Below are positions 10,895 through 46,320 of a stretch of 50,016 nucleotides of DNA, piece after piece. Location: positions 1-50,016 of the IMG/VR virus record IMGVR_UViG_3300044547_001062; one strand, 5' to 3'. The notes under the pieces are model-generated. The model saw nothing but the letters and a program-made list of their open reading frames with translations, ran no database searches and had not been told where the DNA came from. Position 1 is the first letter of the stretch. Every line of letters begins with the position of its first letter. The translations under genes were made by a program, and so were the position numbers. Source of the stretch: a virus.

Positions 10895-10898
10895 TAAC

Positions 10899-11315
10899 AT
10901 GAAAATCATCATAACCGAATCCAAAATGAATTCCACCATCTATAATTTTATAGATGAACTATTTGCGTCAAAAGATGGGAATCCCGAAATTTTTAAACTT
11001 GACTCTTTTGATTCAGATGGAGCACCATTGATTGATGCATTTGATTTTGTGAATTCCGATTATTATGGTGATGAGGGTTCAGATTACCTTTTTAGTTGGA
11101 CAGGAAAAGAATATTATAAAACAATTTATGCTCAAGGTAATATAACCAAATTTGAATATGAAAGGATGATATTGGTATCACCTTTTGTTGAAATTATAGA
11201 TAAAGATGCTATTGATTCTCTCAATGGTTATTTTGGTGATTTGTGGAAACCTGTATTCAAACAATGGTTCAAAGATAAAACAGGATTGGATTATAAAACT
11301 TTAACTTTATATTGA
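10899..11315 (+). CDS. ITES-tagged protein, family member 2
   Basis: The protein has 138 residues starting MKIIITESKMNSTIYNFIDE. The start follows the family motif; an in-frame ATG at 10863 would overlap the previous gene. After the tag comes an acidic domain with FVNSDYYGDEGSDYLFSW, ending GDLWKPVFKQWFKDKTGLDYK. The same C-terminal pattern (W-F, then a short basic tail) recurs in the 12401 and 19578 genes, so these are paralogues. Function unknown. Confidence 0.75.
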   Translation: MKIIITESKMNSTIYNFIDELFASKDGNPEIFKLDSFDSDGAPLIDAFDFVNSDYYGDEGSDYLFSWTGKEYYKTIYAQGNITKFEYERMILVSPFVEIIDKDAIDSLNGYFGDLWKPVFKQWFKDKTGLDYKTLTLY

Positions 11316-12760: not shown

Positions 12761-12835
12761 ATGAAATACATTATAACAGAATCACAATATAAATTAAAAG
12801 GATGGGGGTTTTTTATTTATGGGGTATTTATGTAA
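12761..12835 (+). pseudogene. Truncated ITES gene (tag only)
   Basis: The frame begins MKYIITESQYKLKGWGFF and stops after 24 residues. The sequence after the tag (AAAAGGATGGGGGTTTTTT) matches the 3' half of the terminator at 14106, so a deletion seems to have joined a tag start to a terminator remnant. It is the clearest broken member of the family. Confidence 0.7.
12825..12831 (+). promoter_or_regulatory. TATTTAT-class promoter candidate
   Basis: TATTTAT ends 5 bases before the ATG at 12837 and favours that start over the ATG at 12819. Confidence 0.55.
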
Positions 12836-12836
12836 T

Positions 12837-14081
12837 ATGAAAGTAACGATTAGCGAAAGCCAATTTATTAGAATGGTTAATAACTCAAAAGGGTGGGGGT
12901 TAATCGGTATTAACGAGGGCGGTAAACCAAAAAATACTTTAGAATATATTAAAGACCATAGTAATGAATTAGAATTAAAATATTTAGGAACGCAAGACGA
13001 AAAACTTAGTTATGGGATGACAGACTATAATTGGTTAGATAGAAATAATAAAGAATTGCGCGACAAAATTATGTTACACCAAAAAAATAAAAAGAAGAAA
13101 AAAGAACGGGACATAATAGAAAAAAAATATTTAGGAACTATAGATGGAAACCCTATTCCAGGATATAATGTTGTTGATACACTTAAGCAGGGTTCCGAGG
13201 ATTATTATTGGCTTAAATATAATGACATACCTTTACGTGATAAAATTAAAAGTACAGAATATTCTTTACTTGGAAAAGTACCTACATCAACAAGATACGT
13301 TTCAAGTGATATTAAAGACCATAGTAATGAATTAGAATTAAAATATTTAGGAACGCAAGACGAAAAACTTGTTCCAAACTATAAAGTTGTTGATAAACTC
13401 ACATATAACACTACAGATTATAGTTGGTTATCTAATTATAACATACCATTACGTGACAAAATTATGTTATACCAAAAAAATAAAGATATTGAAATACGTA
13501 GTAATGATTTCCTCCAAAACTATAAAAAAAATAAGGAGTTTAATTATCTTATGACGGATTATAAGTGGTTATGGTATAATAATCCAAACTTGTTTAAAAA
13601 AATTAGATTAGATTTTATAAAAAACCACCCTGAAAAACGTAAAGAAAGTATAGGGGAAAAAAATCTTAAAGACGTATTAAATAGTATGGGATTTACAGGT
13701 TTAATTCCTCAGTATAGATATGATGATTGTAGAGGGTCAAAATCTTGTCGTCAGTATATGTTTGATATATATTTACCATATACAGGTAAAAATATAGAAA
13801 TTAATGGTAATATACCAAAAAATGGAGTTTTATTTGAATTTGACGGAGAAGGACATTTTAAATCTATTAAAAGTTGGGGGGGTGATGATGGTTTATCAGA
13901 ACGTATTTATAATGATGTATCAAAAAATGAATATACCAAAACTAAAGAAATTAAATTAATTAGAATTCCATATACCTCTAATAATAAAGAGTTTATTAAG
14001 AGCCAAATTATTGATGCACTTAATAACCCTAATCAATTAGTTTTAACTGGAAATTATCCCAAACTTGGGTGGAATAAATAA
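12837..14081 (+). CDS. Vsr/PD-(D/E)XK-type nuclease with N-terminal repeats
   Basis: The protein has 414 residues. It starts MKVTISESQFIRMVNN, a degenerate tag with S-E-S in place of T-E-S. Residues about 40-260 hold repeated units with KYLGTQDEKL, DY.WL and (L/I)RDKI, probably DNA-reading modules. The last 140 residues look like a Vsr-like or homing-type nuclease: IGEKNLKDVLNSMGF, YMFDIYLP (Asp), GVLFEFDGEGHF (Glu/Asp) and NEYTKTKEIKLIRIPY. The order fits Vsr-like homing endonucleases such as I-Bth0305I, but I recognise it by pattern only. A 62-base exact repeat lies in the coding sequence. A terminator follows. Confidence 0.7.
   Translation: MKVTISESQFIRMVNNSKGWGLIGINEGGKPKNTLEYIKDHSNELELKYLGTQDEKLSYGMTDYNWLDRNNKELRDKIMLHQKNKKKKKERDIIEKKYLGTIDGNPIPGYNVVDTLKQGSEDYYWLKYNDIPLRDKIKSTEYSLLGKVPTSTRYVSSDIKDHSNELELKYLGTQDEKLVPNYKVVDKLTYNTTDYSWLSNYNIPLRDKIMLYQKNKDIEIRSNDFLQNYKKNKEFNYLMTDYKWLWYNNPNLFKKIRLDFIKNHPEKRKESIGEKNLKDVLNSMGFTGLIPQYRYDDCRGSKSCRQYMFDIYLPYTGKNIEINGNIPKNGVLFEFDGEGHFKSIKSWGGDDGLSERIYNDVSKNEYTKTKEIKLIRIPYTSNNKEFIKSQIIDALNNPNQLVLTGNYPKLGWNK
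12946..13007 (+). repeat. 62-base exact direct repeat, copy 1
   Basis: Identical to 13309-13370 in the nuclease gene. It encodes IKDHSNELELKYLGTQDEKL. Perfect identity at DNA level points to recent duplication or gene conversion. Confidence 0.9.
13309..13370 (+). repeat. 62-base exact direct repeat, copy 2
   Basis: Second copy of the 12946-13007 unit, in the same frame. Confidence 0.9.
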
Positions 14082-14519: not shown

Positions 14520-15476
14520 ATGGATAAAACAATTAAACTTCTTGAAGAATTTCTTAAAGATTACACAATGGAAGGAGCCTGTGGTTTTTGGGTGCAACCT
14601 GATGAAGAAGGTGGAGTGCCGTCAGTTTATATTGTATTGGATTTAGATTGGTTGAAGGAAACCCAAACAAAACCTGGATTTATTGAACGAAGAATGAGAC
14701 AAGGACTTAAAGAAGATATTAAAAATTGGACAGGTATTGAAGTTCCTTATGTTGGTTCCACCGCAAAAAAATGTGGTAGTCTAAATGAAAATGTGTCAAC
14801 GTATCTTCGTAGAAGATTGTCTTTAGAGGGTATGAAACAAGATATTGATAATCTTGTTGATTATGAATTAAATCCATGTGAATTTTCGGATATTGGTGAT
14901 TTTGTTGCTGAAGCCTGTGATATGTTGGCGCATAACTATCTTGAAGACCTACAAGTATCATCTAAAGATAAAGATAAGTTCTATTTTGCACTTGTTGATT
15001 TATTTGGGAAACATCTTGTGAATGTATACAAACAAAGATGTGTAGAAGGACTAATGGAATCCAAAAAGAGAATTATTGTTACAGAATCTCAATATAAGAG
15101 GATATTTGAACAGAAAAAATCAAAAGTTGAGATGTTTCAAGACTTAATAAATGATAAGTTAGAAGATATTAGAAAAGAGTGTGATGATTTGGGATTTAAT
15201 TTTGAGACTTGTAATGATGTTGATATGATTGAATCTATTAAAGTTGAAGGGGTGAATATGTTAACAGGTGACAGAACGGACATGAGTGGTAATAAGTATG
15301 TTTCAGAACCATCAATATACGTTAAACTCACAATTAATTATTCAAGTATTATCCCATCAAAGGATTTTGACGAAATTATTTATGATTTAAAATGGATGTT
15401 AAAAAAATCAACAGGTGGATTACCAATTGTATTGGATTATCAAATAAATAATTTGAACACAAATAAAGAGTGGTAG
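14520..15476 (+). CDS. Two-part protein with internal ITES-type motif
   Basis: The protein has 318 residues. The first part (MDKTIKLLEEFLKDYTMEGA) contains a helical domain with NVSTYLRRRLSLEGM and FVAEACDMLAHNYLE. At about residues 182-190 the sequence KKRIIVTESQYKRIFEQKKS repeats the tag found at the N-terminus of other proteins, here in the middle. It is followed by a second domain (residues 200-318). If I-V-T-E is a protease site, the protein could be cut into two parts. Alternatively two genes were fused. Function unknown. Confidence 0.7.
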   Translation: MDKTIKLLEEFLKDYTMEGACGFWVQPDEEGGVPSVYIVLDLDWLKETQTKPGFIERRMRQGLKEDIKNWTGIEVPYVGSTAKKCGSLNENVSTYLRRRLSLEGMKQDIDNLVDYELNPCEFSDIGDFVAEACDMLAHNYLEDLQVSSKDKDKFYFALVDLFGKHLVNVYKQRCVEGLMESKKRIIVTESQYKRIFEQKKSKVEMFQDLINDKLEDIRKECDDLGFNFETCNDVDMIESIKVEGVNMLTGDRTDMSGNKYVSEPSIYVKLTINYSSIIPSKDFDEIIYDLKWMLKKSTGGLPIVLDYQINNLNTNKEW

Positions 15477-20693: not shown

Positions 20694-21368
20694 TTATTTA
20701 AATTTTAATCCTGTTAGTCTCTCGATAACTGACACATCAACTTGGTTATTCAAATAACCATCAGGTTTTGATGTATCATTAACAAATAAGAATGCGTTCC
20801 ATTCATTTGTTTTTTTAACATAAAAAACTTTCCAACACTTTTCAGGAACGGCAACTCTACCGATTCTTTTAACCTCACCGATATTACCACACCAAACATG
20901 TATACTATCTTTTTCACTTGCTAATTTTCTTGTTAACACTTCAACTGATTTCCAATCACCAGCATTTAAACTTCTATATTGTGGTGACATATTTGAGAAA
21001 TAAAAACATTCATCTTGAATTTGTTGTGTTTGACATAAATTATCTGCAGCTGGCATCATGTGACCTCTATCAGTTCCACTTCCAACGTAATCTTTAGCGA
21101 TATCGGTTTCTTTTGGTAAAAGTGGGTCAGGTTTAAAATTGTCTTTTCTCTTTAGTGGTGTAGTACAAGTAACCATTGATTTTGTTACCCACCATTCAAC
21201 CATTACGGGATACATTTTTGATTTACTAAAAACAGAAATGTAATTAATATGGTTTAATCTTACAGTATCACTGTAATCTTGAGAGACTTTTTGAATGTTC
21301 GTATTCAATTGTCCGTTTGCAATTATACTAAATAGTATAATACTTGTGAGTATAAAAATTTTCTTCAT
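20694..21368 (-). CDS. Secreted DNA/RNA non-specific endonuclease (NUC1/DRGH family)
   Basis: The protein has 224 residues. The signal peptide is residues 1-19 (IFILTSIILFSIIANG). The DRGHM motif with Asp100, Arg101 and catalytic His103, followed by PAADN, and the metal-binding Asn126 in FSNMSPQ, identify a beta-beta-alpha-metal nuclease of the Serratia/NUC1 type. It cleaves single- and double-stranded DNA and RNA. With a signal peptide it should act in the periplasm or outside, where it could degrade DNA from lysed cells, or competing phage DNA as it enters. It stands alone on the minus strand. Confidence 0.9.
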   Translation of the reverse strand: MKKIFILTSIILFSIIANGQLNTNIQKVSQDYSDTVRLNHINYISVFSKSKMYPVMVEWWVTKSMVTCTTPLKRKDNFKPDPLLPKETDIAKDYVGSGTDRGHMMPAADNLCQTQQIQDECFYFSNMSPQYRSLNAGDWKSVEVLTRKLASEKDSIHVWCGNIGEVKRIGRVAVPEKCWKVFYVKKTNEWNAFLFVNDTSKPDGYLNNQVDVSVIERLTGLKFK

Positions 21369-21415: not shown

Positions 21416-21922
21416 ATGGGAACAAAATTTACGCTTACAGAACAAGAAAGAGAAGATATTAAAAAACAATATCAATATCTAATCAAAGAATCTGATGATA
21501 AAAAAGATGATAGAAAATTCTGTCATGGAGGAAATGTAAAGACATTAGAAGAGATCGTTGGTGATGACACCATGGAAGATTATATTGAGGGAGTTCAAAT
21601 TAGACCTAACGGAGTTAATGGTTTGGTTGATAAAATTGAACTATTAAAGACACTTAGAATTCATCCAAAAGTATCCGATGGTGGAGAACACTTGGCTAGT
21701 GAGATTATGAACCATTTGAAAACATATAAGCCATATAATTATTTCGATGAGACTAAAAATGAGTGTAACTCGGCAATGGATAAAATTATTGAATTGTATA
21801 AAGAACATGAAAGTGGTGAAGAATTGGTTAAAGATATTGAAAAGGTTTATGCAATGCAACACATCTCACCAAGGGCAAAAGAATTCTTAAAACACGGTCT
21901 TGGAATGCTTAGAGGTAAATAA
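21416..21922 (+). CDS. LTEQ-tagged protein of unknown function
   Basis: The protein has 168 residues starting MGTKFTLTEQEREDIKKQY. The L-T-E-Q motif and following helix (YQYLIKESDDKK) match the tag class seen at 18179, 18410 and 23477. The mature part is helical, with EEIVGDDTMEDYIEGVQIRP and HISPRAKEFLKHGLGMLRGK. Function unknown; possibly packaged. Confidence 0.7.
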   Translation: MGTKFTLTEQEREDIKKQYQYLIKESDDKKDDRKFCHGGNVKTLEEIVGDDTMEDYIEGVQIRPNGVNGLVDKIELLKTLRIHPKVSDGGEHLASEIMNHLKTYKPYNYFDETKNECNSAMDKIIELYKEHESGEELVKDIEKVYAMQHISPRAKEFLKHGLGMLRGK

Positions 21923-24579: not shown

Positions 24580-27500
24580 ATGTCATTCTCAAGACCATTT
24601 ACATATAATCCATCACCTAATCCACTAATTAATGGTACTGAACAAGTTGGTAGTTTAGCAGTTGGAACACCAACATCAGGATTTACAAATAATCCACAAT
24701 TTTGGAACGGACCTGACGAAGCGTTGGGGTATGTTATTGCTTATCCTGTTTCAGGAGGAACTCATCCAACACCAATTTCGGGTGTAACAGCATATCTTGG
24801 TTTTAAAGGAACCAAAAACATGACTAATCCATTAAGTGAATCAACATTTGTGGAATTGGTTAACAGTTCATTTAATCAAAGTTTCACAAATGGGGACGAG
24901 GCTTCATATTATTTATTGAGTGAAGGATATTGGACATCTTACCCCTACACACCACTTTTCTCAGTTCAATTTTTTGAGTCAGGTTCTGATGTAATATTAT
25001 CTTATGAGGGTCGACTTAACTTAGATGGTTTAGATTTTGTTGAAAGTGGTTCTTTAGGATTCGGTGGTGGAGTAGTACCAAATGTTGGTGTATTTCTAAA
25101 TCAAGACGTAAATGGTTTTTCAGCATACGGTGGAGCCACGTTTAATGTCCCAACCTCTTTTGGTTCAGGAGAGGGGGGTGTTTCAGATTTGGGTAGTGGT
25201 AATAGTTTTGGTGTGTTTAACCCGTACGGCAGTTATTTTCTTTTAGTTCCTACGGGATATACATCGTTTGAAGATTATATCCAAGGGTCATTATTATTTA
25301 CAGGACAAACACTTACAAGTTTGGGAATGAATACTGGCACATACAACTATAGTTGGGGGGGATACTTGGGACAATCATTTGTTCTTACAATTGGAGGACC
25401 AGCTCCAACACCAACACCAACAGGGACAATTGCGGTTACACCAACTAATACACCAACACCAACTAATACACCTACAGGAACTGCGGCTGAAACGCCAACT
25501 CCTACACCTACAGGTACACCTGCTGAAACACCAACAGGAACTGCGGCGGCAACTCAAACACCATCAGTTACACCAACATTAACACAAACACCAACTCCAA
25601 CTGATTTAAGTGCGATTACCACTTACACCATCTCAGGATGTAGTAGTTCAAATGTTATTGTCGCTGATTTAGGACCAGGAGCATTTTTCCCTGGTGATAC
25701 ATTCTATTTGGACTTTACAGGAGCGACTGCAACTGAATGTTACACAATTATCAATAAAATCAACGCAACACCTACAGATGGTGGTAACCCAATATCTTCC
25801 TATCCTAATTGTGCCGATTGTATTGACGGAACAACCACAACTTACACAATTTCAGGATGTACTACTTTGAATGTATTAGTCGCTGATTTAGGACCAGGAG
25901 CATTCGGTGCTGGTGATATATTCAACATGACATTTACAGGAGCAACTCCAAGTGGATGTTACAGAATTGTCAATAAGATTGTTGCTACCCCAACAGATAC
26001 AGGAGCACCACTAACTTTCTATTTTAATTGTGATGATTGTGAGGCTTCATTGGTAACACCAACACCTACGGCAACACCAACAAATACTGAAACTCCAACT
26101 GAGACTCCTACACCTACGGTAACAGAAACTCCAACAGGAACACCATCTGTAACAGAAACACCAACTGAGACTCCTACACCGACAGTGACGGAAACTCCGA
26201 CAGGAACACCAGCGGTAACACCAACAAATACGGAAACACCAACTGAGACTCCTACACCGACAGTAACTGAAACACCAACTAATACTCCAACAGAGACGGA
26301 AACACCAACACCAACTCCGACAGGAACAATTGGAGCGACACCTACTGAAACGGAAACTCCTACTCCAACACCAACTGAGACTCCAACAGGAACTCCATCG
26401 GTGACAGAAACACCAACTGAGACTCCAACAGGAACTCCTGAGGTAACACAAACAAATACTCCAACAAATACGGAAACACCAACTGAAACTCCTACACCAA
26501 CTCCGACTGAAACTCCAACAGGAACACCATCGGTAACACCAACAAATACAACTACACCTACTACAACACCTTCAGTATGTACTCCTACCGCAACGCAAAA
26601 CGTGGCGGGTGTTGATGGATTAACAGGATTTTTCTTTGGTGGATTCCCAACACCACTTGGAATAGTTCAAGTTGGATGGTATGCTAATGGACCTGGTGTT
26701 TTAGACGCATTGGTCACTAATATTGATAGTGTGAATCAAAATATTACTATAGCTCCAGGAAACGGAGTATTTGTTTCTGGTAGTTTCTATACTTTCTGTA
26801 ACGCACCTCAATTCCCTAATGTTACACCAACATCGACTCCAACTGAGACGGAAACTCCTACTCCTACACCAACAAATACTGAGACTCCGACTAATACTCC
26901 AACTGAAACACCTACAAATACACCAACCAATACGCCTACTGAAACTCCAACACCTACTCCAACTGAAACACCTACCGAGACTCCTACTGAAACTCCTACT
27001 GAAACTCCTACTGAAACTCCAACAAATACTCCAACTGAAACACCAACTGTAACCGAAACTCCAACAGGAACACCAACAGGAACACCAGAAGCAGAAACTC
27101 CTACTCCTACACCAACAAATACTGAGACTCCGACTAATACTCCAACTGAAACACCTACAAATACACCAACCAATACGCCTACAGAAACTGAAACACCTAC
27201 TCCAACTCCTACGAATACAGAAACTCCAACCAATACTCCAACTGAAACAGAAACTCCAACTGAAACACCAACTAATACTCCAACAGGAACACCAGAAGCA
27301 GAAACTCCTACTCCTACACCGACAGTAACTGAAACTCCAACTAATACTCCTACACCAACTGTAACAGAAACTCCAACAAATACGCCTACTAATACTACAA
27401 CCACCACACCTTCAGTTACACCAACAAACAGTATTAATGGTAGTGCGTTGTTCAATGATACTAATTTCCTTACTATAAGTGGAAACACAGGTACTGCTAT

Positions 27501-28989
27501 GGGAATAGGTGATTTTACTTGGGAGTGTTGGGTTTATCCGACTAGTAGTTTAGGATTTCAAACATTTATAGACACTAGAACAAATCCACTTAGTGGTGGT
27601 GATACTACAGGTTATTATTTTGGTACAAATAATAACACATTAACTCCTATGGTTTATACAAATGGCATTCTTTTACAATCAACAAACAACATAACATTAA
27701 ATGGATGGAATCACGTTGCGTTGACTAAAGTAAGCGGAACCTTAAATATTTGGATAAATGGTGTTAATAGTGGTAGTGTCTCAGATGCGTTTACAAATTT
27801 GACAAACCAAAGAATACTCATCGGAGGTGCCGCTGCCAACTCGGCAGCATTAACTTTAACAGGAAACCTTAGTAATATTCGTATTACAAAAGGAGTTGCG
27901 GTCTACACGGCAAACTTTACTAAACCAACAACTAACTTTACCGTAACTCAATCAGCAAATGTTAATGGTAATCCATCGGCAGCAATTACGTCAGGACAAA
28001 CCCAAGTATTATTAAACACTAATTTTGGTGGTGGATTCTTAACAGATACTTCTACCAATAACTTTACTGTAGTAAATAATAACGGAGTGACGAGTTCGAC
28101 TTTTGAGCCATTTACTCCTATTCCATTCCCAACACCAACTCCAACTAATACTCCTACTAACACCGCAACTCCAACACCAACAACAACCGAGACTCCTACA
28201 GAAACTCCAACAAATACTCCTACACCGACAGTAACAGAAACTCCAACAAATACTCCTACACCTACTAATACTGAAACACCAACTAATACTCCTACACCAA
28301 CAAATACTGAAACTCCTACACCAACTATAACTGAAACACCAACTAATACTCCTACACCAACTATAACTGAAACACCAACTAATACTCCTACACCAACTAT
28401 AACTGAAACACCAACTAATACTCCTACACCAACTATAACTGAAACTCCAACAAATACTCCTACACCAACTATAACTGAAACTCCTACTGAAACACCAACA
28501 AATACTCCAACACCAACAGTAACTCCTACATCGGGAGTAACAGGTGATTTTAATATAACCATTTCACAAGTAACAGGCCCTAACGTTGTATGGTCAGGTT
28601 CGGGTTCATTTAATTTAAGTGGTTTAACATCTGGTGGAAGTCCAAGTGGTCTTGCAGTGTCTGAAGTATCAAACGGACTTTGGATAGTAGGACCAACAGG
28701 ATCTATTAATTTTAATGCATACAATGGTGTGACAACATTCCCATCTAACTTTGGAACAGGAGGTACATTTTTCCCTGACTCAGGTTCAGGAAGTTTTGGT
28801 ATAGTATCAAATGAAACAAACAGAACTTTATTAGTACCTACAGGATATGTCTCAGGTGACTTTATAATTGGTACTTCAACATATGAAGGTGAAACACTTA
28901 TATCTATGGGATTAAGTGCAGGAGATATATTCACTTGGAGTTGGGGTTCAGGAGAAAATACAAGTACAATAGTGATGAGTATCATATAA
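24580..28989 (+). CDS. Giant Thr/Pro-repeat surface or fibre protein with LamG-like domain
   Basis: The protein has 1,469 residues. Domains are: an N-terminal beta-rich part (1-270) ending in [14 protein letters not shown]; a PT-rich block (275-342); two copies of a 65-residue domain (about 347-412 and 419-487, TYTISGC...ADLGPGAF); PT blocks at 492-666 and 747-951; a concanavalin/LamG-like domain (about 952-1180, [22 protein letters not shown]); a PT block at 1183-1317; and a C-terminal domain (1318-1469) related to the N-terminal one ([13 protein letters not shown]). There is no signal peptide, as expected for a virion fibre. LamG-like domains often bind glycans, so host attachment is likely. 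The PT blocks act as stiff spacers that may be glycosylated. A TATTTAT motif lies about 18 bases upstream. Confidence 0.8.
25405..25605 (+). repeat. PT-rich coding repeat block 1
   Basis: Degenerate short units of CCAAC(A/T)- and ACTCCTAC-type codons encode TPTNTP, ETPT and TGTP. Low complexity and variable in order. Confidence 0.85.
26056..26577 (+). repeat. PT-rich coding repeat block 2
   Basis: About 174 codons of [18 protein letters not shown]-like units. Synonymous changes between units show that it did not arise in one step. Confidence 0.85.
26821..27432 (+). repeat. PT-rich coding repeat block 3
   Basis: About 204 codons of the same type. A longer segment containing [20 protein letters not shown] recurs twice within it. 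Confidence 0.85.
28129..28530 (+). repeat. PT-rich coding repeat block 4 with 36-base tandem units
   Basis: It includes an almost perfect 36-base tandem repeat starting at 28321, 28357, 28393, 28429 and (partial) 28465, encoding [12 protein letters not shown]. The uniform unit suggests recent slippage. Confidence 0.9.
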
Positions 28990-33257: not shown

Positions 33258-33677
33258 TTAAGAGAAATGATGTTTTACTCTATCTAATAATTTTTCGTTG
33301 AACTTTATTCCGTGTCTATTTTTAAATTGTTTTAATAATGTTTTAATTGATTCGATTTTACCTGATTTAGATAATAAAATATAAGCACCTAAGTCAGCGT
33401 CTATTTCATCATCCTCACTTCTTGGACCATCATGACCCATTATAATATGAGATATTTCATGTGCCTCAATAAATTTTAACACTTCGGCACCTAATCCATT
33501 TACTAACTGTTCTCCATCAATAAGAACCAAATTTTGACCTGGAATCATAAAACCATACCCATACTCTTCAAAATAGTCTTTTAACTCCTCATATTGAGGA
33601 TTTTCCTCAAATATTACAGCAATTTGTACACTTGGTAGGAATTCGCTATTGTATATTATTGGGTTTGATTCTTCCAT
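33258..33677 (-). CDS. Zincin-like metallopeptidase domain protein
   Basis: The protein has 139 residues. IEAHEISHIIMGHDG is an HExxH zinc site (His73, Glu74, His77), and SEDDEIDADLGAYILL about 15 residues later supplies an acidic third ligand, as in gluzincin or ImmA/IrrE-like proteins. A small soluble zinc peptidase could cut a host regulator or structural precursor. It overlaps the endolysin gene start by one base, so the two are coupled. It could also be an inactive relative. Confidence 0.75.
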   Translation of the reverse strand: MEESNPIIYNSEFLPSVQIAVIFEENPQYEELKDYFEEYGYGFMIPGQNLVLIDGEQLVNGLGAEVLKFIEAHEISHIIMGHDGPRSEDDEIDADLGAYILLSKSGKIESIKTLLKQFKNRHGIKFNEKLLDRVKHHFS

Positions 33678-34534
33678 TATGATAATAATTTATAATATTC
33701 GTTAAAATGTTTAATTCTGTCAGCCAAACCTATTGTGCCGCCATTAACTCTTTTAGTTACAGCAGTTACTGTTGCGTTATCAGATCCTCTATCACAAATT
33801 GCCCACAATTTATTGGAATCAAAGAAAAATGCGGCAGATGCTAAAGGATATTTGGTTGCGACTAAATCAGGGTTGGAAACAGTATCTTCACCGATGAACC
33901 TCGCAAATCTACTGTAATTATCTTTACCAGTCAACTGTATAAAACCCCTACCTCTAAATTTAAAACCATCCCCTGTTGATTCGGGACCATTACCCATTCT
34001 ACCACCATAAACTTTACTTGCGATTTTTTGTGGTTGACGTGCGTATGATTCTGCCAAATTACCTGGAAAATATTTTCCAAAAATACTCTTAAGACCTGAT
34101 GCGGAATAATTAACATTTTCGGTAACAGCTTTAAATCCACCTGATTCGTGACCACACTGTGCTAAAAAATGAGCCAATCTTAAATTATTTGTTATATTAA
34201 ATTTTGATGCGGTTTCAGGTATTTGTAAAATAACTGAATCGGGTATATGACCTTTTAATTTATCAATTTTTAACCCATTAACAGGTAAAATATTAGAGGT
34301 TGTTGGAGTTATGATTTTATCTTCTTTAATAATTTCATTACCAAACATTTTGTTCCAAGTTTCATCACCAACAATACCATCGGCACCTAATCCATTTTTG
34401 GATTGCCATTTTTTAACCGCAGCTGAAGTTCCAGGACCGAAGATACCATCAGGTTCTAAACCTGCTTTTGTTAAACCCAACTTTGTTTGGAGTTTTTTTA
34501 CGTCTTCTCCTTTAGACCCAATTTTTAGTAACAT
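33677..34534 (-). CDS. Endolysin: peptidoglycan-binding plus GH19 domain
   Basis: The protein has 285 residues. Residues 4-63 are a PG_binding_1 domain (GSKGEDVKKLQTKLG, DGIFGPGTSAAVKKWQ, DGIVGDETWNKMFG). A linker follows to about 90. The C-terminal GH19 domain has HFLAQCGHESGGFK with the catalytic Glu130, then YFPG, KVYGGRMGNG and GDGFKFRGRGFIQLTGKDNY. GH19 phage lysins hydrolyse peptidoglycan for lysis. There is no signal peptide, so it depends on a holin. This is the clearest lysis gene of the window. Confidence 0.95.
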   Translation of the reverse strand: MLLKIGSKGEDVKKLQTKLGLTKAGLEPDGIFGPGTSAAVKKWQSKNGLGADGIVGDETWNKMFGNEIIKEDKIITPTTSNILPVNGLKIDKLKGHIPDSVILQIPETASKFNITNNLRLAHFLAQCGHESGGFKAVTENVNYSASGLKSIFGKYFPGNLAESYARQPQKIASKVYGGRMGNGPESTGDGFKFRGRGFIQLTGKDNYSRFARFIGEDTVSNPDLVATKYPLASAAFFFDSNKLWAICDRGSDNATVTAVTKRVNGGTIGLADRIKHFNEYYKLLS

Positions 34535-34608
34535 ATTTATTATTTTTTAAATAAATATATTTCAAGTATTGATTTTAAAGTATTTATCTATACCAAGATA
34601 CTATTAAA

Positions 34609-35106
34609 ATGAAAAATTTATTCGTTTTGATGCTAATTATGCTATTATCATCATTTAATCACCAAGACCCACCCAAAAAAGTTTTTATTCAATCAGTTAA
34701 TAATAAGATTGAAGTTGGAACTTTGGCAAATAACAGAAATTTGTCCTTTGGGTTTAAAAACATTCTTTTAGAAAACTTACAAGAATTAAATTACGATGTT
34801 GTTTCGTCTGCAGAAGATGCTGATTACACCATCAAAGTTGAATTATTGTATTTTGACGTGTTGGAAACAAATTCCGGATTCTCAGTTTTTCACAAAAGTG
34901 AAAATGAAACTGTATTAAGAATTAGAGGTTATTTGTATAACAAAGACGGCAAAAAACTAAAAGAATTTGTTTCCGTTGGAAAATCATCTGAGATTTCCAT
35001 GTCAACACTTATAATATCTGAAGGCGGAGGTATCAACCAGACCTCAGTTTCTAATGTTATAAAAAAGTCCTCTGAGACATTAATCCTTAATCTATTTAAA
35101 AAATGA
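34609..35106 (+). CDS. Exported protein of unknown function
   Basis: The protein has 165 residues. A signal sequence (LFVLMLIMLLSSF) is followed by a mature domain with alternating strands and helices (DYTIKVELLYFDVLETNSGF, then ENETVLRIRGYLYNKDGKKL). The pattern of a helical tail after S-S-E-T-L recalls periplasmic domains of CsgG-like or LPS-export proteins, but this is weak. First gene of a tight run of seven to 41108; overlaps the next by 4 bases. A TATTTAT motif lies about 25 bases upstream. Confidence 0.7.
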   Translation: MKNLFVLMLIMLLSSFNHQDPPKKVFIQSVNNKIEVGTLANNRNLSFGFKNILLENLQELNYDVVSSAEDADYTIKVELLYFDVLETNSGFSVFHKSENETVLRIRGYLYNKDGKKLKEFVSVGKSSEISMSTLIISEGGGINQTSVSNVIKKSSETLILNLFKK

Positions 35107-37004
35107 AAAAAATCATTTCGGTTATATCCATCTTACTATTAGGTATGGTTGGATATGCACAAACACCCGAAATAGGACATTTTGAACAACTAAAAACGGT
35201 AAGAAGAGGGGACACAATTGATGTTGCATGGTATTACAAACCAGCTTCAGGGGTTGATGTCAGAACTTTTCAAGTTGATTTTCAGTTTAAGAAAACCCTA
35301 TTTACTCACATTTCTTCTAATGTTGATGCTGTTTACTCAAACAACTCACCAACATTAAATTATCAGGAATGGAAAAATTACAAGTATGGTTCTTACTCGT
35401 CAGCAGCAGGAACATACAATTACACATCGGATACAAACTGGACGGTGGGTCGTAACTACTTAATCTTTGCGTTAGGTAGTTCATCTACATTCTCATCAAA
35501 CGGTTATATTATCCATAACAAATTCATCATCAATGATGTTCAACCAAATTACGTATCAGATTCAATTATTGTGAATTGGTCAAGAATGTTTAGAGTGAAT
35601 GGAACCACGATAGGAGATAATGTTGCAACTCTATCACACCAAAAACAAGCAATTAAATTGTTGGGTAATTTAACAATTTCAGGTAAAGTTTGGTTTCCAT
35701 CAACAATAACTGCGGGTCTACTTCCCACAATTTATTGTTATGAAAACAACACAGGTGTTTTAGTTTCACAAACAAAACCAACTATTAATGGTAATTACAC
35801 TTTAATTAATATTGATGAAAAAACTAAATATAAAATTGAAGTTAGGTTTCCTCAAGATAGTTTAGAAAAAATGAGGGATTATGCTGTAACCATTTCAGAT
35901 GCTATCAAGGCATATAATGAATATGTTAATACAGATGTTAATCAAAACTATGGTCGGGCTTACTTAAAACATGGTTTAGGTTTATTGATTAGTGATATCA
36001 ATTTAAACTCTAAATTTGATGGTGGAGATCCTTATGGGATTTACGCATCAGTTTCTGGTTTAAGACCAATTGACCCTTCAAAATTAATAAATGTATTTAG
36101 CAAAGGTGAATATGATTCTCTTGTATTAGGAGGTAACCAATGGGTTGATTGGACTGCTTACTCTGACAGAGGAAAATTCATTTATGATAGTGTTGGAACA
36201 AATAATCTAACATTAGATGTTAAATATTTTATATTGGGTGACGTTGATAGAACACACTCATCACCGGTATTTAACGGAACGAGTGAAGTATTTGCTGCGA
36301 TTTACAAAGGACAATATAATGTTGAAATTCCAAACGCATATTCTGTTGGACAACCGATGTATTTACCATTTAACATAAACACAAATGGTGATTATAACAA
36401 TGGATTACAATTTGAAGTTAAGTATGATGTGAGTAAAGTTAATTTTGAAGAAATAATATCTAATTTACAAGGTCCGTGGTTACAATATGTTACACATGAT
36501 AATGTGAATGGTATTGTTAGATTCGGAGCGATGAACAATCAAAAAAAAGGGTCACTACAAGGTGTAGTGACCCCTTTCAATCTTAAATTTTCAGCCAAAG
36601 TCTCAACAAACGACATAACAACTGATGTTGTCGTGAGAGAATTAATGGATGCTTCAGATAAAGAAGGAGACCATTTTAATATCGTGTTAAAATCACAAAG
36701 AGTTGTGATGATGTATAAAACACGAACAATAAATAACATAACAGAGCCAATCGTAAATCTTTACCCTAATCCAAATAATGGTGAATTTAAACTTGATTTT
36801 GAATTACCACCTAATACAAATGTGAATACATCTATTTATGATTATCAAGGTAAACTAATAATAAATTTGGGAAATATTGAATCAGGTTTTAATACAGCAA
36901 AAACAACAAAATCAGTTGAAGAACCTCAATTACCTCAAGGAAACTATTTATTAGTGGTATCAGGAGACGATAAACAAATAAATAAACCTTTTATTAAATT
37001 CTAA
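35103..37004 (+). CDS. Exported multidomain protein with T9SS sorting domain
   Basis: The protein has 633 residues. The signal peptide ends at about 19 (LLLGMVGYAQ). Domains are: a cohesin-like beta domain (25-160), a carboxypeptidase-regulatory-like part (ISGKVWFPSTITAG, about 195-270), a dockerin-like loop (LLISDINLNSKFDGGDPYG), YFILGDVDRTHSSP, a second cohesin-like domain (about 410-525) and a C-terminal type A sorting domain of the type IX secretion system (VNLYPNPNNGEFKL, LPQGNYLLVV). The last is a host-exported surface signal found in Bacteroidota. A phage copy implies use of the host T9SS. A hairpin with a minus-strand T run lies inside the gene. Confidence 0.8.
   Translation: MKKIISVISILLLGMVGYAQTPEIGHFEQLKTVRRGDTIDVAWYYKPASGVDVRTFQVDFQFKKTLFTHISSNVDAVYSNNSPTLNYQEWKNYKYGSYSSAAGTYNYTSDTNWTVGRNYLIFALGSSSTFSSNGYIIHNKFIINDVQPNYVSDSIIVNWSRMFRVNGTTIGDNVATLSHQKQAIKLLGNLTISGKVWFPSTITAGLLPTIYCYENNTGVLVSQTKPTINGNYTLINIDEKTKYKIEVRFPQDSLEKMRDYAVTISDAIKAYNEYVNTDVNQNYGRAYLKHGLGLLISDINLNSKFDGGDPYGIYASVSGLRPIDPSKLINVFSKGEYDSLVLGGNQWVDWTAYSDRGKFIYDSVGTNNLTLDVKYFILGDVDRTHSSPVFNGTSEVFAAIYKGQYNVEIPNAYSVGQPMYLPFNINTNGDYNNGLQFEVKYDVSKVNFEEIISNLQGPWLQYVTHDNVNGIVRFGAMNNQKKGSLQGVVTPFNLKFSAKVSTNDITTDVVVRELMDASDKEGDHFNIVLKSQRVVMMYKTRTINNITEPIVNLYPNPNNGEFKLDFELPPNTNVNTSIYDYQGKLIINLGNIESGFNTAKTTKSVEEPQLPQGNYLLVVSGDDKQINKPFIKF
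36541..36576 (-). terminator. Terminator-like hairpin inside a coding gene (minus direction)
   Basis: GGGTCACTAC-AAGGT-GTAGTGACCC, a perfect 10-bp stem. The A run before it on the plus strand is a T run on the minus strand, so it could end antisense transcripts. Confidence 0.6.
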
Positions 37005-37010
37005 AAAAAA

Positions 37011-37337
37011 ATGTCAGAAGAACAAAACGTAGAGACAAATGACGGAACATGGTCAGGTCTTAAAAAAACAATTATTGCAACATTAACAACTGTTATTACC
37101 GGAGGTGGAGTATGGTTAAGTACTACTTTATTTAGTGGTCAAGAAGAACCACAAGTACAACAACCAGTTCAACAAGTGGCACCCGTGATTAACATTAACA
37201 ACACCCAGCAGCAACAATCTGGTGGTGAAAAAACAATCATCATAAAAGAAAAAGCGCCAGCGGCTGCACCTGCTAAAAAATCAGAAGAACCAGTTAAACC
37301 TAAAAAAGAATTCACAGAAGAAGAACCAAAATGGTAA
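37011..37337 (+). CDS. Membrane protein with Pro/Gln and Lys/Pro-rich tail
   Basis: The protein has 108 residues. One hydrophobic segment at about 18-41 (KTIIATLTTVITGGGVWLST) is followed by a low-complexity Gln/Pro region (QVQQPVQQVAPVININ) and a Lys/Glu/Pro-rich tail (KKSEEPVKPKKEFTEEEPKW). This suits a bitopic inner-membrane protein with a flexible arm. It overlaps the next gene by 7 bases and sits in the exported-protein cluster, so it may anchor or energise it. Function unknown. Confidence 0.7.
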   Translation: MSEEQNVETNDGTWSGLKKTIIATLTTVITGGGVWLSTTLFSGQEEPQVQQPVQQVAPVININNTQQQQSGGEKTIIIKEKAPAAAPAKKSEEPVKPKKEFTEEEPKW

Positions 37338-37903
37338 CTAATCAACAACCAACAGGATTTAAAGAACTTTTAAGTGCGATGATGAAACGAAGATGGTTTA
37401 TCACCGCAATCGTACTTGGTGGTTTTATGATTATCATATTTGGCATTTTTTTGGCAATTATGGGTAAAACCCCAATGTCCTCTGAATGGAAAGAGTTACT
37501 TCTTTTATTGTTAGGTGCATTTATTGGTTCTTATGGTAAAATCATTGACTATTGGTTCAGTGATACCGACAAAGATAAAATGCTAGTCCAGAAAATGGAT
37601 GAGGAGGACGGTGTATCGTTATCAAATACTACAGACATACCAAACAACCCAATCGTTCCTATGAGTATGGTACCATTAGTTTTACCAACAAGTGAGAAAG
37701 TTGAACAACCTGTCCAAGCTAAAGTAGGTGTTGAAATCGATGAAGATGGTGATGGTGTAATGGATGGTTTAGATTTCGATGGTGATGGTAAAATTGATGA
37801 ATATTTTTCACATAGAAATTGTCAGCATGTTTGGGGTGATTCAGATGGTGACGGTGATGAAGAATGTCTTATTTGTGGATTAATTAAACCAATTGAAGAA
37901 TAA
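37331..37903 (+). CDS. Membrane protein with C-terminal Ca/Zn-like loops
   Basis: The protein has 190 residues. Membrane segments lie at about 22-45 (WFITAIVLGGFMIIIFGIFL) and 55-70 (LLLLLLGAFIGSYG). The C-terminal 55 residues have two EF-hand-like or dockerin-like loops (DEDGDGVMDGLDFDGDGKID), then NCQHVWGDSDGDGDEECLIC with a possible zinc site. The combination of membrane part and calcium loops suggests docking to the dockerin- or cohesin-bearing neighbours, which is inference. It ends one base before the CsgG-like gene. Confidence 0.7.
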   Translation: MVTNQQPTGFKELLSAMMKRRWFITAIVLGGFMIIIFGIFLAIMGKTPMSSEWKELLLLLLGAFIGSYGKIIDYWFSDTDKDKMLVQKMDEEDGVSLSNTTDIPNNPIVPMSMVPLVLPTSEKVEQPVQAKVGVEIDEDGDGVMDGLDFDGDGKIDEYFSHRNCQHVWGDSDGDGDEECLICGLIKPIEE

Positions 37904-37904
37904 T

Positions 37905-38657
37905 ATGAAAAAGTTTAAATTAAACAAAATGAAACAAAAAATATCGGTGTTTATAATATTTTTATTATGTATTTTAACACAAAATGCTGTTGCTCAAACC
38001 ATAGGTAAAACAAAGACAGAATCTTATGTTGCGGAATTTGAAAAGAAAAGGGACATAAGTGATTATATGAAATACGATGGTCCTCAAATACCAATCCAAA
38101 TCCTTAAATGTGGTATATCTGAAGAAATGTATGAGATGTATCCAGAATTAAAAGAAAAAAGAGTTGGTTTGGGCGTTGCTAATATTTCAATGGAATATTT
38201 GGAAAACTTAAACAGATTTAAATTTACTGAAAGTCAAACAGAAATTAAGAATCGTATGGTTTTACAATATAAGGCATCTGCTGCAGGTATTTCCGAAAAT
38301 AAATTAGATGGTCGAGGTAAAATCAATTTGGCAAAATATTTTGTAACGATTGAATGTTATGATTATTCAATATCTGAAGACGAGACAATTAGTTTAAAAG
38401 ACGGAATTAAAGATAATATGGTAACTCGTATTGGTTTACAAGTAAGATTTACCGATGCGGAGACTGGTTTAGTATTTGGCGGATCAGGATTAGGTGAGGC
38501 TAAGACAACAAGAGAACTTACTTTAATATCCGATGCAACCATCGATCCAATTAAATTCAACCAATCAACAATATCAATCGCAACTAAAAAAGCATTAGAT
38601 GTCGCAGTTGTTAACATTCTTGATAGAATGATTAAAAAACAAATATTCACCAACTAA
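37905..38657 (+). CDS. CsgG-like exported protein
   Basis: The protein has 250 residues. The signal sequence is at residues 10-26 (ISVFIIFLLCILTQNAVAQ). The ATG at 37905 is used; a second at 37929 is possible. The mature part has KINLAKYFVTIECYDYSISE, a strand with VGLQVRFTDAETGLVFGGSG, and an ending helix ATKKALDVAVVNILDRM. This order is like CsgG/HfaB, the outer-membrane pore of curli and holdfast export. The lipobox of CsgG is absent. It is part of the seven-gene exported cluster. Family assignment is by pattern. Confidence 0.65.
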   Translation: MKKFKLNKMKQKISVFIIFLLCILTQNAVAQTIGKTKTESYVAEFEKKRDISDYMKYDGPQIPIQILKCGISEEMYEMYPELKEKRVGLGVANISMEYLENLNRFKFTESQTEIKNRMVLQYKASAAGISENKLDGRGKINLAKYFVTIECYDYSISEDETISLKDGIKDNMVTRIGLQVRFTDAETGLVFGGSGLGEAKTTRELTLISDATIDPIKFNQSTISIATKKALDVAVVNILDRMIKKQIFTN

Positions 38658-38661
38658 TTAA

Positions 38662-40002
38662 ATGAAAAAGTTAAAACCAGTTTTTCTTTTATTATTTGTG
38701 TTATTCACAAGTTTAAAAACTATTGGTCAGTCATTAACTTACACATTTATTGACCCATGTACCAAAGAAGTAACATATTTTAGTGTTCCAATTCAAAGTG
38801 GTGGAACAACAATATTCTTTTTGGGACAACAAAGATATTTCACCGCTGGAGATGTATCCAGCGGTGTCTTTGCCTCTTGGATAAGTCAAACATATACCGA
38901 TTACCGAAAAATTTCACCATGCGGAGTACAACAAGTAAGGGTTACACAAAATCAAATTACATCACAAATTATAGGTAATACTATTCAAAGCGTAGTCGGT
39001 AGTATTATGAGCCAAACAAAAATCGAATCAAATATATCAAAAGATGATAAAAATAATACTAATGATGGTTCTACTACCCCTAACATTACTAGCAATAGTG
39101 ATAGAACTAGCAATAATAATCAAGGAAATACGACTTCAAATACAGGATCGTCAAGTTCTAAAAATGAATCCAATGGTGGTAGTAATAATGGAACTAATAA
39201 TAAAAATAACGGATCGGGTACATCAACAAATCAAGGAGATAAAAATACTGAAACTAAAAAAGAAGATAATGAAGTAGTTGGTGCGACAACAATGACCGTA
39301 GATGCCAATAACGATAAGGGTGGTAATGGAGGATCAAGTAAAAGTAATACAAGAAATAATCCCGTTATCGTTTCATCAGATCTAACAAGCGCACAAAATT
39401 TAGACAGAAGTTATACAGGTATCATAAATGTCGGAATGTCACAATCATCTATGACTGGAACCTCAAGTTGGGGTGTTAATTCCATGATTTGGTTTAATCT
39501 TAATCAGTTTGCAATAACTGGTAGATACACAAAAATACAATATAATAAAACTCGTAAAATAAAATTGATTCACAATTTGAACTTAACAGGATTATATTCT
39601 TATGGAAATATATTAGGATTTGCGGGTTATAGTACAATATTAAATGCGGGTAAATTTGGTATAACGGGAGTTAATGTTAGTGGTGCGATAACAAAAACAC
39701 CTGAAGATGAAAATTTATTTATTAGTCCTTCGGCAACCGCGTTTTACACTAAACCATTTAGAGTTGGAAAAAAATTAGTCCTATCACCTGAATTGTATGT
39801 TATCTCAACTCCATTGATTTATTCATCTGTGGATAAAGTTACAGTATCAGATAGAACATTTAGTTCATTTATTGGAACAGGTGTTGATTACCAAATCTCA
39901 AGAAAATTTAAAGTAAATATTAATTACAAATTAAACATGAGTACCAATCCTGATTTTCCAGTTCTTTCGTTTTTCTTAATTGGATCAAAGATTAATTTAT
40001 GA
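38662..40002 (+). CDS. Exported protein with Asn/Ser-rich linker and beta-barrel-like end
   Basis: The protein has 446 residues. A signal sequence ends near residue 22 (LLLFVLFTSLKTIGQS). The first domain (23-135) is followed by an Asn/Ser/Gly-rich low-complexity linker (about 140-245) and a C-terminal part of amphipathic strands (LNQFAITGRYTKIQY, ATAFYTKPFRVGKKLVLSPE) ending FFLIGSKINL, as in outer-membrane barrels. A perfect 10-bp hairpin lies in the early coding region (38841-38866). It overlaps the next gene by 4 bases. Likely an outer-membrane component of the cluster. Confidence 0.7.
   Translation: MKKLKPVFLLLFVLFTSLKTIGQSLTYTFIDPCTKEVTYFSVPIQSGGTTIFFLGQQRYFTAGDVSSGVFASWISQTYTDYRKISPCGVQQVRVTQNQITSQIIGNTIQSVVGSIMSQTKIESNISKDDKNNTNDGSTTPNITSNSDRTSNNNQGNTTSNTGSSSSKNESNGGSNNGTNNKNNGSGTSTNQGDKNTETKKEDNEVVGATTMTVDANNDKGGNGGSSKSNTRNNPVIVSSDLTSAQNLDRSYTGIINVGMSQSSMTGTSSWGVNSMIWFNLNQFAITGRYTKIQYNKTRKIKLIHNLNLTGLYSYGNILGFAGYSTILNAGKFGITGVNVSGAITKTPEDENLFISPSATAFYTKPFRVGKKLVLSPELYVISTPLIYSSVDKVTVSDRTFSSFIGTGVDYQISRKFKVNINYKLNMSTNPDFPVLSFFLIGSKINL
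38841..38866 (+). promoter_or_regulatory. Perfect 10-bp hairpin inside a gene
   Basis: CACCGCTGGA-GATGTA-TCCAGCGGTG. No T run follows, so it is not a simple terminator. It could affect mRNA stability or translation. Confidence 0.5.
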
Positions 40003-41108
40003 TGAGACATATAATTTTTATAATACTATTTTTAATTACGTTTTCATTAAGTGCTCAATCACCCTTATGTACCAGTAGACCTACAACATTTTGTTGTGAG
40101 TATGTTTCAAGTGTTACTATAAACGGTAGAACATATAGTGGTAGTAATGGATTTGCGGCATCCTCAGGTGGAAATCCTGCGGGTTATTATGATTATACAA
40201 CAGGAACTGGTATTCCAACGATAACCGCAGGTCAAAATATTTCAATTTCATATACAGCGGTTACGAATGGTAATTATATGGAATATTTTAAATTATGGAT
40301 AGATTTTAATGGTAATGGTAGTTTAACAGATCCGGGTGAGTTAGTTCATAGTAATAATGTTTCTTGGGTCGGAACAAGAACAATTAACGCAACATTTGTA
40401 GTTCCAACAACAGTATTTAACGGACAAGTGTATATGAGATTTATTATGCAATATTCAGGTTCACCTATTATATGTGGAACCTACCCTTATGGTAATACTT
40501 TTGACTTTAAGACTACAATTGCAGGTGCCCAACCAAATCCTAATCAACCAATACCAACAGAAACTATAAGTGGTAAAATCAGTATTCCAATAGGATTATC
40601 TGTAAGACCAAAAGTTATGTTGTATAAAGTAATTGGAACCTCGTTAAGTTTAATTGATAGTGTAATTGTTGATGTTAATGGTAATTACATTTTGAAACCT
40701 AATGAATATAATGTAACATATAGAGTAGTTCCATCTTATTCTGCTGTGTTGACCTCATCGGATTTGGTTAATCTTTTAGATGAAGCAAAAAATGTTAGTG
40801 TCCCACCAAAATTATCACCAGGATTAATATTAAATACGGGTCCAAAAATGATGGCAGGAGACATAAATAACGACGGCAAAGTGTATATTGATGACGGATA
40901 TTTGTTGGCGAGAAATCTATCGGGAATGAACCCTATAAACACAGTATATTGGTTTACCGACTCACAATACTCAACAATCACATTAAGTAATTTTAACATA
41001 ATAACACCATCGTCACACTTTATTGTTAATTTTACAACATTTTCAGTTATATTAAACATAAAATATGTTGTTTTAGGTGATACTAACTTATCATCTTCTT
41101 CACAATAA
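39999..41108 (+). CDS. Exported GEVED/dockerin-like protein lacking a sorting domain
   Basis: The protein has 369 residues. A signal peptide (residues 3-20, IIFIILFLITFSLSAQ) is followed by a GEVED domain (EYFKLWIDFNGNGSLTDPGE, YMRFIMQYSG), an SGKISIP... regulatory-like part and a dockerin-like loop (GDINNDGKVYIDDGYLLAR). The end YVVLGDTNLSSSSQ matches YFILGDVDRTHSSP of the 35103 protein, where that one continues with a cohesin-like and the T9SS domain. So this gene looks truncated, or it is secreted by another route. Last gene of the cluster. Confidence 0.75.
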   Translation: MMRHIIFIILFLITFSLSAQSPLCTSRPTTFCCEYVSSVTINGRTYSGSNGFAASSGGNPAGYYDYTTGTGIPTITAGQNISISYTAVTNGNYMEYFKLWIDFNGNGSLTDPGELVHSNNVSWVGTRTINATFVVPTTVFNGQVYMRFIMQYSGSPIICGTYPYGNTFDFKTTIAGAQPNPNQPIPTETISGKISIPIGLSVRPKVMLYKVIGTSLSLIDSVIVDVNGNYILKPNEYNVTYRVVPSYSAVLTSSDLVNLLDEAKNVSVPPKLSPGLILNTGPKMMAGDINNDGKVYIDDGYLLARNLSGMNPINTVYWFTDSQYSTITLSNFNIITPSSHFIVNFTTFSVILNIKYVVLGDTNLSSSSQ

Positions 41109-43528: not shown

Positions 43529-43951
43529 ATGAAAAAAATAACAACTATACTATTACTATTTTTAACTTTAACCTCAAGATCCCAACAGAAAGACATACTT
43601 TATATTCCACAACAAAATTCCTTGGTTGCGTCTCACAATTATAAACAAATTGGTTTATATTTTGGAGGATATTTTTTAACAACACTACCTCAACCTTATG
43701 TGTATACTACACCATTATCAATAATTAATCGTGTTGGATTGACATATGTTAATAAAGATAACACATATAGTATAATGTGTGGCGCATTTTTACAATCATA
43801 TTTTGATCATGTTGACATGACTCCCGATGTTTGGGTTAAAATTTATCCAATAAGAATGATAACTAAAAATAAAAAAAGTTTAGATTTTTCACTTGGTGTG
43901 AATTATTCTGACGGTTTTAGGTACGGAGTTGGGTTATCAATTCCATATTGA
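43529..43951 (+). CDS. Small exported beta-rich protein
   Basis: The protein has 140 residues. A signal peptide (ITTILLLFLTLTSRSQ) is followed by alternating amphipathic strands (QIGLYFGGYFLTTLP, INRVGLTYVNKDNTYSIMCG), ending DGFRYGVGLSIPY, a pattern close to an outer-membrane barrel C-terminus. The leaderless promoter is like that of early genes. Possible outer-membrane protein that alters phage receptors. Function unknown. Confidence 0.7.
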   Translation: MKKITTILLLFLTLTSRSQQKDILYIPQQNSLVASHNYKQIGLYFGGYFLTTLPQPYVYTTPLSIINRVGLTYVNKDNTYSIMCGAFLQSYFDHVDMTPDVWVKIYPIRMITKNKKSLDFSLGVNYSDGFRYGVGLSIPY

Positions 43952-44961: not shown

Positions 44962-45716
44962 TGAATAAAATTGCGTCATTTGCTAAAAAATTTTTAATGT
45001 CACAACCATTTTTTGAAGATGGTTTTGAATATCAATTTATATCAGTAGAACCTGATAGTGATTGGGCAATCAAATTTACCGTAAATGTATTATTACCAAA
45101 AAAAGGTCAATCTTTTGTTGTAGAAAAATTCAGTTATGACATTGGTGTTATTATAGAAAACGCCTCAAGATATATTGGTGAAGGTATTTCTTATACAGAA
45201 AACATTTTAGTTGAAGGCAGACCTATTCCTGAAAATGGTGTGTATATAAATGATGAAGATTGTGATGAAATCATTCGTTCGTTAAATGAGAATGTAAAAC
45301 AAATAACATTGTCTAACGATAAAGATGTTTCATATGTTAGTGTAAAAATTTTATTTTTTCGTAATACTGAAAGAAATAAATTTTATTTAATGGATTCTCA
45401 TCAGTACATTGATTTTTATCTAAAATATGATATTGGTAGAATTGAATATAATAATGCTCCTGTACGTATAAATCAAAAGATGTTTGATAGTTTTGGTGAG
45501 GTTTTTAATGAAAAACTTCAGGATTCAAGTAGATTTAGAGATGGATTACAAGACATAATTTATCGTGTTTTGGAACCAAGTATAAAAATACAAGACATTG
45601 AAGTTTATATTAACGCCCAATATTGGATAGATAAAATAGATGGTATGGAAGTTCTTGTAGATGGTAATAGTACCATATATGAATTTATACCTGAAATGTT
45701 TATTGAAATTTCTTAA
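44961..45716 (+). CDS. Protein of unknown function
   Basis: The protein has 251 residues starting MNKIASFAKKFLMSQPFFED. It appears beta-rich in the middle with FYLKYDIGRIEYNNAPVRIN, acidic, with no motif I recognise. One base overlaps the metallopeptidase gene, suggesting joint function. The ending WIDKIDGMEVLVDGN and the convergent 45700 gene overlap at their 3' ends. Confidence 0.7.
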   Translation: MNKIASFAKKFLMSQPFFEDGFEYQFISVEPDSDWAIKFTVNVLLPKKGQSFVVEKFSYDIGVIIENASRYIGEGISYTENILVEGRPIPENGVYINDEDCDEIIRSLNENVKQITLSNDKDVSYVSVKILFFRNTERNKFYLMDSHQYIDFYLKYDIGRIEYNNAPVRINQKMFDSFGEVFNEKLQDSSRFRDGLQDIIYRVLEPSIKIQDIEVYINAQYWIDKIDGMEVLVDGNSTIYEFIPEMFIEIS

Positions 45717-46320
45717 TAATTTTTTTGATTGTTTCGGTTAGAGCAATTTGGCCAGTAAGTACAACTCCTGAGGCAACTAATCTTTTTGCAATTGTCATTG
45801 CGGTTGTTTGTATATCACTACCTTCCGTGATTGCGGATTGAATATCTGTGATAATTGGAATTAAAAACGAATACGTCACTAATTCTAATGTTGACCCTAA
45901 AGTAACATTGGCAGATTTCATAAAATTAAAAAATGAATCTCTTAAATTTCTTGATTTAATTAAAACTTCTTTAAATGTATCTTCTAAACCTTCTTCTTTA
46001 ATTTTGGTTAAAATTGTTTTAAGAGTTTTTACGTTATCGTAGAAATATGTACATGCAACGCCAATTAAGATTAAAGTCGCTTGGTCATCTGTTAATTCAA
46101 ATCTTCCTGTTCTTATAAAGTTATTTAGTGGCATAACTAAACCACCAACAGACGATCCCCAAGTTAAAAGTAACTTTAGGTTCAAACCATAAGTCTTTTT
46201 CGCCTTGTTAACAAGATTACTTGTAAATGAATACAATTCTTTCATGTAATCACTCATCTTTGATTGGTCTTGTTCTTGTAAAATAATTCTCAGTTGAGAT
46301 TCGTTAATTAAAAAATCCAT
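45700..46320 (-). CDS. INES-tagged membrane-associated protein
   Basis: The protein has 206 residues starting MDFLINESQLRIILQEQDQS. L-I-N-E|S fits the (I/L)-x-E rule. After the tag come helical and hydrophobic segments (LLLTWGSSVGGLVMPLNNFI, TLILIGVACTYFYDNV, then LVASGVVLTGQIALTETI), so it may insert in membranes. An ejected membrane protein is possible. The minus TATTTAT motif ends 6 bases before the ATG, opposite to that of the 46354 gene. Confidence 0.7.
   Translation of the reverse strand: MDFLINESQLRIILQEQDQSKMSDYMKELYSFTSNLVNKAKKTYGLNLKLLLTWGSSVGGLVMPLNNFIRTGRFELTDDQATLILIGVACTYFYDNVKTLKTILTKIKEEGLEDTFKEVLIKSRNLRDSFFNFMKSANVTLGSTLELVTYSFLIPIITDIQSAITEGSDIQTTAMTIAKRLVASGVVLTGQIALTETIKKIIKKFQ

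Follow-up and report, generated by a model that had tools for sequence, protein, structure and literature searches.

Most known cases of phages remodelling the surface of an infected cell involve a single protein or glycosylation genes, and among envelope structures the PelBC exopolysaccharide exporter is built as a PelC ring on a PelB barrel. Operons of csgG and csgF have been reported in pelagimyophages (PMC7029224) and in methylophage Melnitz (PMC9004378); the roles suggested for them are sibling capture, uptake or lysis. CsgG-type phage genes are in this way already known, but the gene set presented here is undescribed as far as we have found: the open-licence literature searched holds no description of this set or of phage T9SS cargo or cohesin modules, and two published accounts of aquatic jumbo-phage lineages name neither CsgG nor cohesin. 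The original prediction that no described phage system has such a set stands for the set itself, but has to be tempered by the published csgG/csgF operons.

The window, a stretch of 50,016 bases that is one complete virus record entry, carries seven genes (g1–g7) at 34609–41108, all on the + strand and each overlapping its neighbor or lying a few bases from it; all seven predicted open reading frames are present, and the block is overall as it was originally described. The first gene, g1 (34609–35106), codes for an exported 165-residue protein with a predicted CsgG/LptE/YajG-type fold, and g2 (35103–37004) for an exported member of the cohesin family that carries a dockerin-like loop and, at its C-terminus, a sorting tail of T9SS type A. 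They are followed by g3 (37011–37337), a bitopic membrane protein with a Pro/Gln/Lys-rich tail and an invariant terminal Trp, which is the marker gene of the module; g4 (37331–37903), a putative membrane protein with two hydrophobic segments, EF-hand-like calcium-type loops (DxDxDG) and a Cys/His cluster; and g5 (37893–38657, with the true start likely at 37905 or 37932), an exported CsgG-fold protein and the most conserved of the module. The last two are g6 (38662–40002), coding for an exported protein with a Cys-containing N-terminal domain, a Ser/Asn-rich linker and a C-terminal barrel-like domain, and g7 (39999–41108), coding for an exported GEVED protein whose dockerin-like region is shared with the cohesin family. 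The divergent neighbor of g1 (33677–34534, − strand) codes for an endolysin with peptidoglycan-binding and GH19-like parts, whose family is found beside or inside the module elsewhere. Just downstream of the module, 43529–43951 codes for a small, apparently barrel-like exported protein with no Pfam match.

A contig from another sample (L002) contains the block and both of its junctions, with g1–g7 at 100% protein identity and two flank proteins 98–99% identical to those of the window; this independent copy, 98–100% identical across the junctions, excludes an assembly chimera. Scans of viral contigs with g5 and with its relative in Flavobacterium phage immuto (the best 80 of 249 and the best 80 of 113) place relatives of the module in at least ~160 viral contigs among the matches listed, and the recurrence of the gene order across about 160 contigs shows that the block is not due to chance. 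Several of the parent contigs exceed 200 kb, the largest being 335 kb, and the nine large records tested have terminase and tail-sheath matches, which identifies them as contractile-tail phages; the window record has neither a terminase nor a tail-sheath match and probably represents a fragment. Immuto (MW353176), the cultured relative that carries the module, has T4-like capsid genes; its genome also includes a block of glycosyltransferase genes at about 49–60 kb and a set for 7-deazaguanine DNA modification at about 18.6–37 kb. Bacterial genomes all but lack these genes, with two matches to the g5 family (by two strict patterns) among 84,980 species genomes, both in contigs of metagenome-assembled genomes (MAGs), and one match to the g3 family among 396 Flavobacteriales genomes, in the MAG holding one of the two g5-family contigs. 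Each of 10 related phage records has g3 exactly once.

A core of five families (g1, the cohesin family, g3, g5 and g6) is present in 75 of the 79 adequately flanked loci, including 32 of 35 in clade A and 43 of 44 in clade B. The loci share descent and so these counts are not independent, and after dereplication at 95% the core is present in 27 of 28 loci (16/17 in clade A, 11/11 in clade B). Clade A, to which the window belongs, has the order g1, cohesin family (often two genes), in some cases a 297-aa exported protein, two lipoproteins, g3, g4, a two-transmembrane (2-TM) protein, g5, in some cases a 275-aa exported protein or small lipoprotein, and g6; in the immuto clade the order is cohesin family, g3, g5, g6 and g1. 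A g6 relative lies no more than 4 kb downstream of g5 in 139 of the 140 testable loci. The proposed synteny across large Bacteroidota phages is thus borne out, with a set that is conserved, order-stable and phage-encoded. Conservation differs among the parts, however: in pairs of clade A loci with g5 at 74–88% identity, the median is 84% for g5, 61% for the cohesin family and 43% for g6 where it can be aligned, so that the envelope part is kept while the exported parts diverge between phages. Some loci have a small gene between g4 and g5 that reads as tail-collar-like (L013:8978-9214 and L005:8993-9229).

The promoter-like motif TATTTAT is located 28 bases before g1 (34581–34587, + strand) and precedes many other phage operons too. 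It is found near the g1 start in 33 of 37 clade A loci (7 expected) and near the starts of cohesin-family genes in 85 of 142 clade B cases (18 expected), and is scarce inside the clade A module except ahead of some g5 genes. In immuto it lies upstream of 14 of 22 structural genes by 7-mer count, but it is also common near the replication genes, and its interpretation as a strictly late motif was dropped.

The identification of g5 as CsgG-like holds for its fold. CsgG is the best structural match of the g5 AF2 model (pLDDT 75), both at the top of the Foldseek results (3.3e-6) and by VIA (Z 11.7, rmsd 4.8 over 161 residues), and is followed by Cj1090c, PelC, LptE, FlgT and others; a viral-structure search with the same model returned one good match, an uncultured Caudovirales CsgG (4.4e-6). 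Profile searches gave little, with no Pfam CsgG match to the window g5 at E≤1, PF03783 matches in two of 21 g5 relatives (best 1.9e-4), no significant hhalign match to E. coli or Flavobacteriales CsgG, and nothing at E≤10 in a PDB profile search; the relation to CsgG therefore derives from the fold and the two Pfam matches. The product of g1 is a remote relative of g5, a kinship that the original prediction had missed. The hhalign comparison of the two profiles gives 95.7% and an E value of 9.5e-9, which places a related pair of proteins of one fold in the module, and the g1 AF2 model (pLDDT 86) is matched by Foldseek to Cj1090c, HpaA, GNA1162, LptE and CsgG; the PDB profile search returned chance-level matches only. 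Among 27 g1 relatives, six match TraT (best 1.2e-4) and five match Lipoprotein_16 (best 5e-5).

We do not class g5 as a curli channel. The protein has no lipobox, its signal in the window ending in NAVAQ-T, and the family consensus has no conserved Cys there, though a few relatives do carry one in the signal region. CsgG-like TM1 and TM2 hairpins are also absent; the tip of hairpin 1 is 35% charged (18% in CsgG), the TM2 region is shorter than that of CsgG and is modelled as one strand, and there is no GGxGARYFGIGA motif. CsgF (PF10614) was found in none of 11 records, some of which, the window included, may be fragments, and was detected in the E. coli control. A non-pore ring like PelC would be an equally fair analogy for g5. 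What is supported of the original interpretation is a conserved, phage-encoded block directed at the envelope, whose products include exported, T9SS-tagged, cohesin/dockerin-type and CsgG-fold proteins; a CsgG-type pore is not supported.

The g2 product matches T9SS profiles PF18962 (36.4 bits, cut-off 27; 6.5e-9) and TIGR04183 (1.7e-8), and with this C-terminal sorting domain and its predicted Sec signal peptide it has the makeup of T9SS cargo; its tail is the only T9SS tail found in the window record. A dockerin-like calcium loop (DINLNSKFDGGD) lies at residue 298. The g7 product clusters with the g2 family, and its originally proposed GEVED and dockerin-like nature agrees with a PF20009 match (8.7e-12) and a single calcium loop at residue 288. 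No cohesin profile matches the window g2. Among 72 family members, 27 have Lectin_C, 20 have Cohesin and 12 have a T9SS tail, and Laminin_G_3, LCCL, GEVED, PA14 and Ig_7 domains also occur. Dockerin-type loops are present in 42% of the family and 2% of shuffled sequences, with PF00404 matching only two of the 72. A T9SS tail went undetected in 60 of the 72 proteins; it occurs once per record in six of 11 records and always belongs to the gene directly upstream of g3, as in immuto, where the product of the gene before g3 (immuto35A_15) combines a cohesin domain with a sorting tail. Judged from its sequences, the g2/g7 family consists of exported proteins that diversify quickly and are built of lectin, cohesin, GEVED and dockerin-like parts. 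We considered whether a diversity-generating retroelement lies behind the lectin variation and rejected the idea, as no reverse transcriptase was found in the 11 records.

The predicted membrane topologies of g3 and g4 agree with the earlier description. The g4 product is holin-like in its anatomy, and has no convincing match among Pfam-type profiles and none in the PDB profile search; the C-terminal barrel of g6 is a candidate recognized from its sequence pattern. An exported endonuclease family has 26 members in or near the module (e.g. L082:9935-10513), and PF01223 was confirmed in the three of them tested, as well as in the exported DNA/RNA non-specific endonuclease of the window (20694–21368, − strand; 7.8e-38), which is 13 kb from the module. 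Elsewhere in the window, 24580–28989 codes for a likely tail or fibre protein of 1469 aa that contains long TPTPT-type repeats, and the GC skew inverts across this gene; genes at 505–2531 appear to code for an enzyme of the keto-acid cleavage type, a hexapeptide acyltransferase and an aminotransferase, which might modify the sugars of surface glycans. Several otherwise unrelated window proteins have in common an ITESKL or INESQLRII-like motif at or near the N-terminus (2829–3269, 10863–11315, 12819–14081, 14520–15476, 21416–21922, 45700–46320 and others).

The module is carried by phages, is conserved and keeps its gene order, and from sequence its products are predicted to be exported or membrane proteins. 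We suggest, at a little under an even chance, that it is a single operon by which the phage remakes the surface of the Bacteroidota cell it infects, most likely excluding rival phages; the one promoter-like motif ahead of the first gene, with little of it within the clade A module, counts for such an operon. The g3 and g4 products would serve as anchors in the inner membrane, and g5 and g1, together with the barrel-like g6, would build an outer-membrane assembly. Sec would move the lectin, cohesin, dockerin and GEVED proteins out, with some phages using the host T9SS through the tail of a cohesin-family protein, and outside the cell cohesin and dockerin parts may hold the exported proteins together. 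The resulting coat would hide or block receptors, so that rival phages would most likely be excluded, and the exported nuclease accompanying some module copies would fit the destruction of incoming DNA. The fuller statement, that paired CsgG-fold proteins g1 and g5, a g6 barrel and the g3 and g4 anchors form an undescribed, phage-specific envelope machine, and that this machine displays a fast-changing lectin/cohesin/dockerin set partly through the host T9SS and so excludes competitors, is doubtful.

Surface remodelling with exclusion is favored because the immuto module (10–16 kb) is separate both from the chitinase-holin cassette (~44 kb, about 28 kb away) and from the capsid and tail genes (119–160 kb), and because the cargo looks adhesive and often has an exported nuclease as a companion. 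A part in outer-membrane lysis is the main alternative, and the endolysin and holin-like genes often present in or beside the module fit it as well: g4 or a small 2-TM neighbor would be the holin, the endolysin would cut the wall, and g5, g1 and g6 with the lipoproteins would open the outer membrane. The endolysin family is represented in 59 loci, 86 loci have 2-TM holin-like genes, at times such genes lie within the module, the endolysin is divergent from g1 in the window, and a similar role was proposed for CsgGF of phage Melnitz (PMC9004378). We nonetheless regard lysis as unlikely, as immuto has its separate cassette, lectin or cohesin heads and T9SS tails would not be expected, and the holin-like genes match their profile weakly (E 0.095) while g4 matches none.

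Lectin/cohesin-dockerin proteins at the surface might instead glue infected cells to uninfected cells or particles and bring hosts near, an idea published for the curli genes of pelagimyophages (PMC7029224) and one that suits the varying lectin-type and adhesive domains and the presence of cohesin and dockerin-like parts within one family; with no amyloid or fibre subunit identified, no CsgF in the 11 records and no clumping shown by Melnitz (PMC9004378), such aggregation or sibling capture seems quite unlikely. That the module proteins are virion parts acting as host-binding decorations is improbable in view of their N-terminal export signals and the position of the immuto module outside the capsid and tail cluster, although lectin and Ig-type domains are common on virions and a tail-collar-like gene, as read in L013, lies near some loci. 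A recent insertion from a host or an assembly chimera, raised with the original prediction as what would overturn it, can be set aside as extremely unlikely: T9SS, GEVED and cohesin domains are of a kind typical of hosts, but the L002 junctions, the spread over about 160 viral contigs and the near absence from bacterial genomes all speak against it.

The order-conserved, multi-gene surface module proposed here is present in a cultured Flavobacterium phage, which makes its role directly testable, and it shares single traits with several known systems. It resembles curli export (type VIII; CsgG/CsgF/CsgE) in the CsgG fold of g5 and in export, but differs in the missing lipobox and TM1/TM2 of g5, the lack of a CsgF match and its other partners. 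The g5 model matches PelC, and a ring with a barrel would be the analogue of g5 with g6, although there is no sequence family link to PelBC and the likening of g6 to PelB is by analogy. Weak Pfam matches of g1 relatives recall the surface exclusion lipoprotein TraT, but the window g1 scores below the cut-off (14.6 bits, cut-off 31) and has no lipobox and no Cys in its N-terminal region. The sorting tail, cohesin and dockerin-like parts resemble those of T9SS cargo and cellulosomes, but here they are phage-encoded, with variable lectin heads and no enzyme domains found; if the proposal is true, a virus feeds cargo into a bacterial T9SS. The csgGF genes of pelagimyophages and Melnitz are likewise CsgG-type genes of aquatic myoviruses located outside the structural genes, but those phages have recognized CsgG and CsgF, whereas the phages described here have Bacteroidota hosts and, with no CsgF found in the 11 records, a module with g1, g3, g6 and lectin/cohesin cargo. 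If its proposed role is true, this module would give the puzzling CsgG-type genes known from marine phages a second context.
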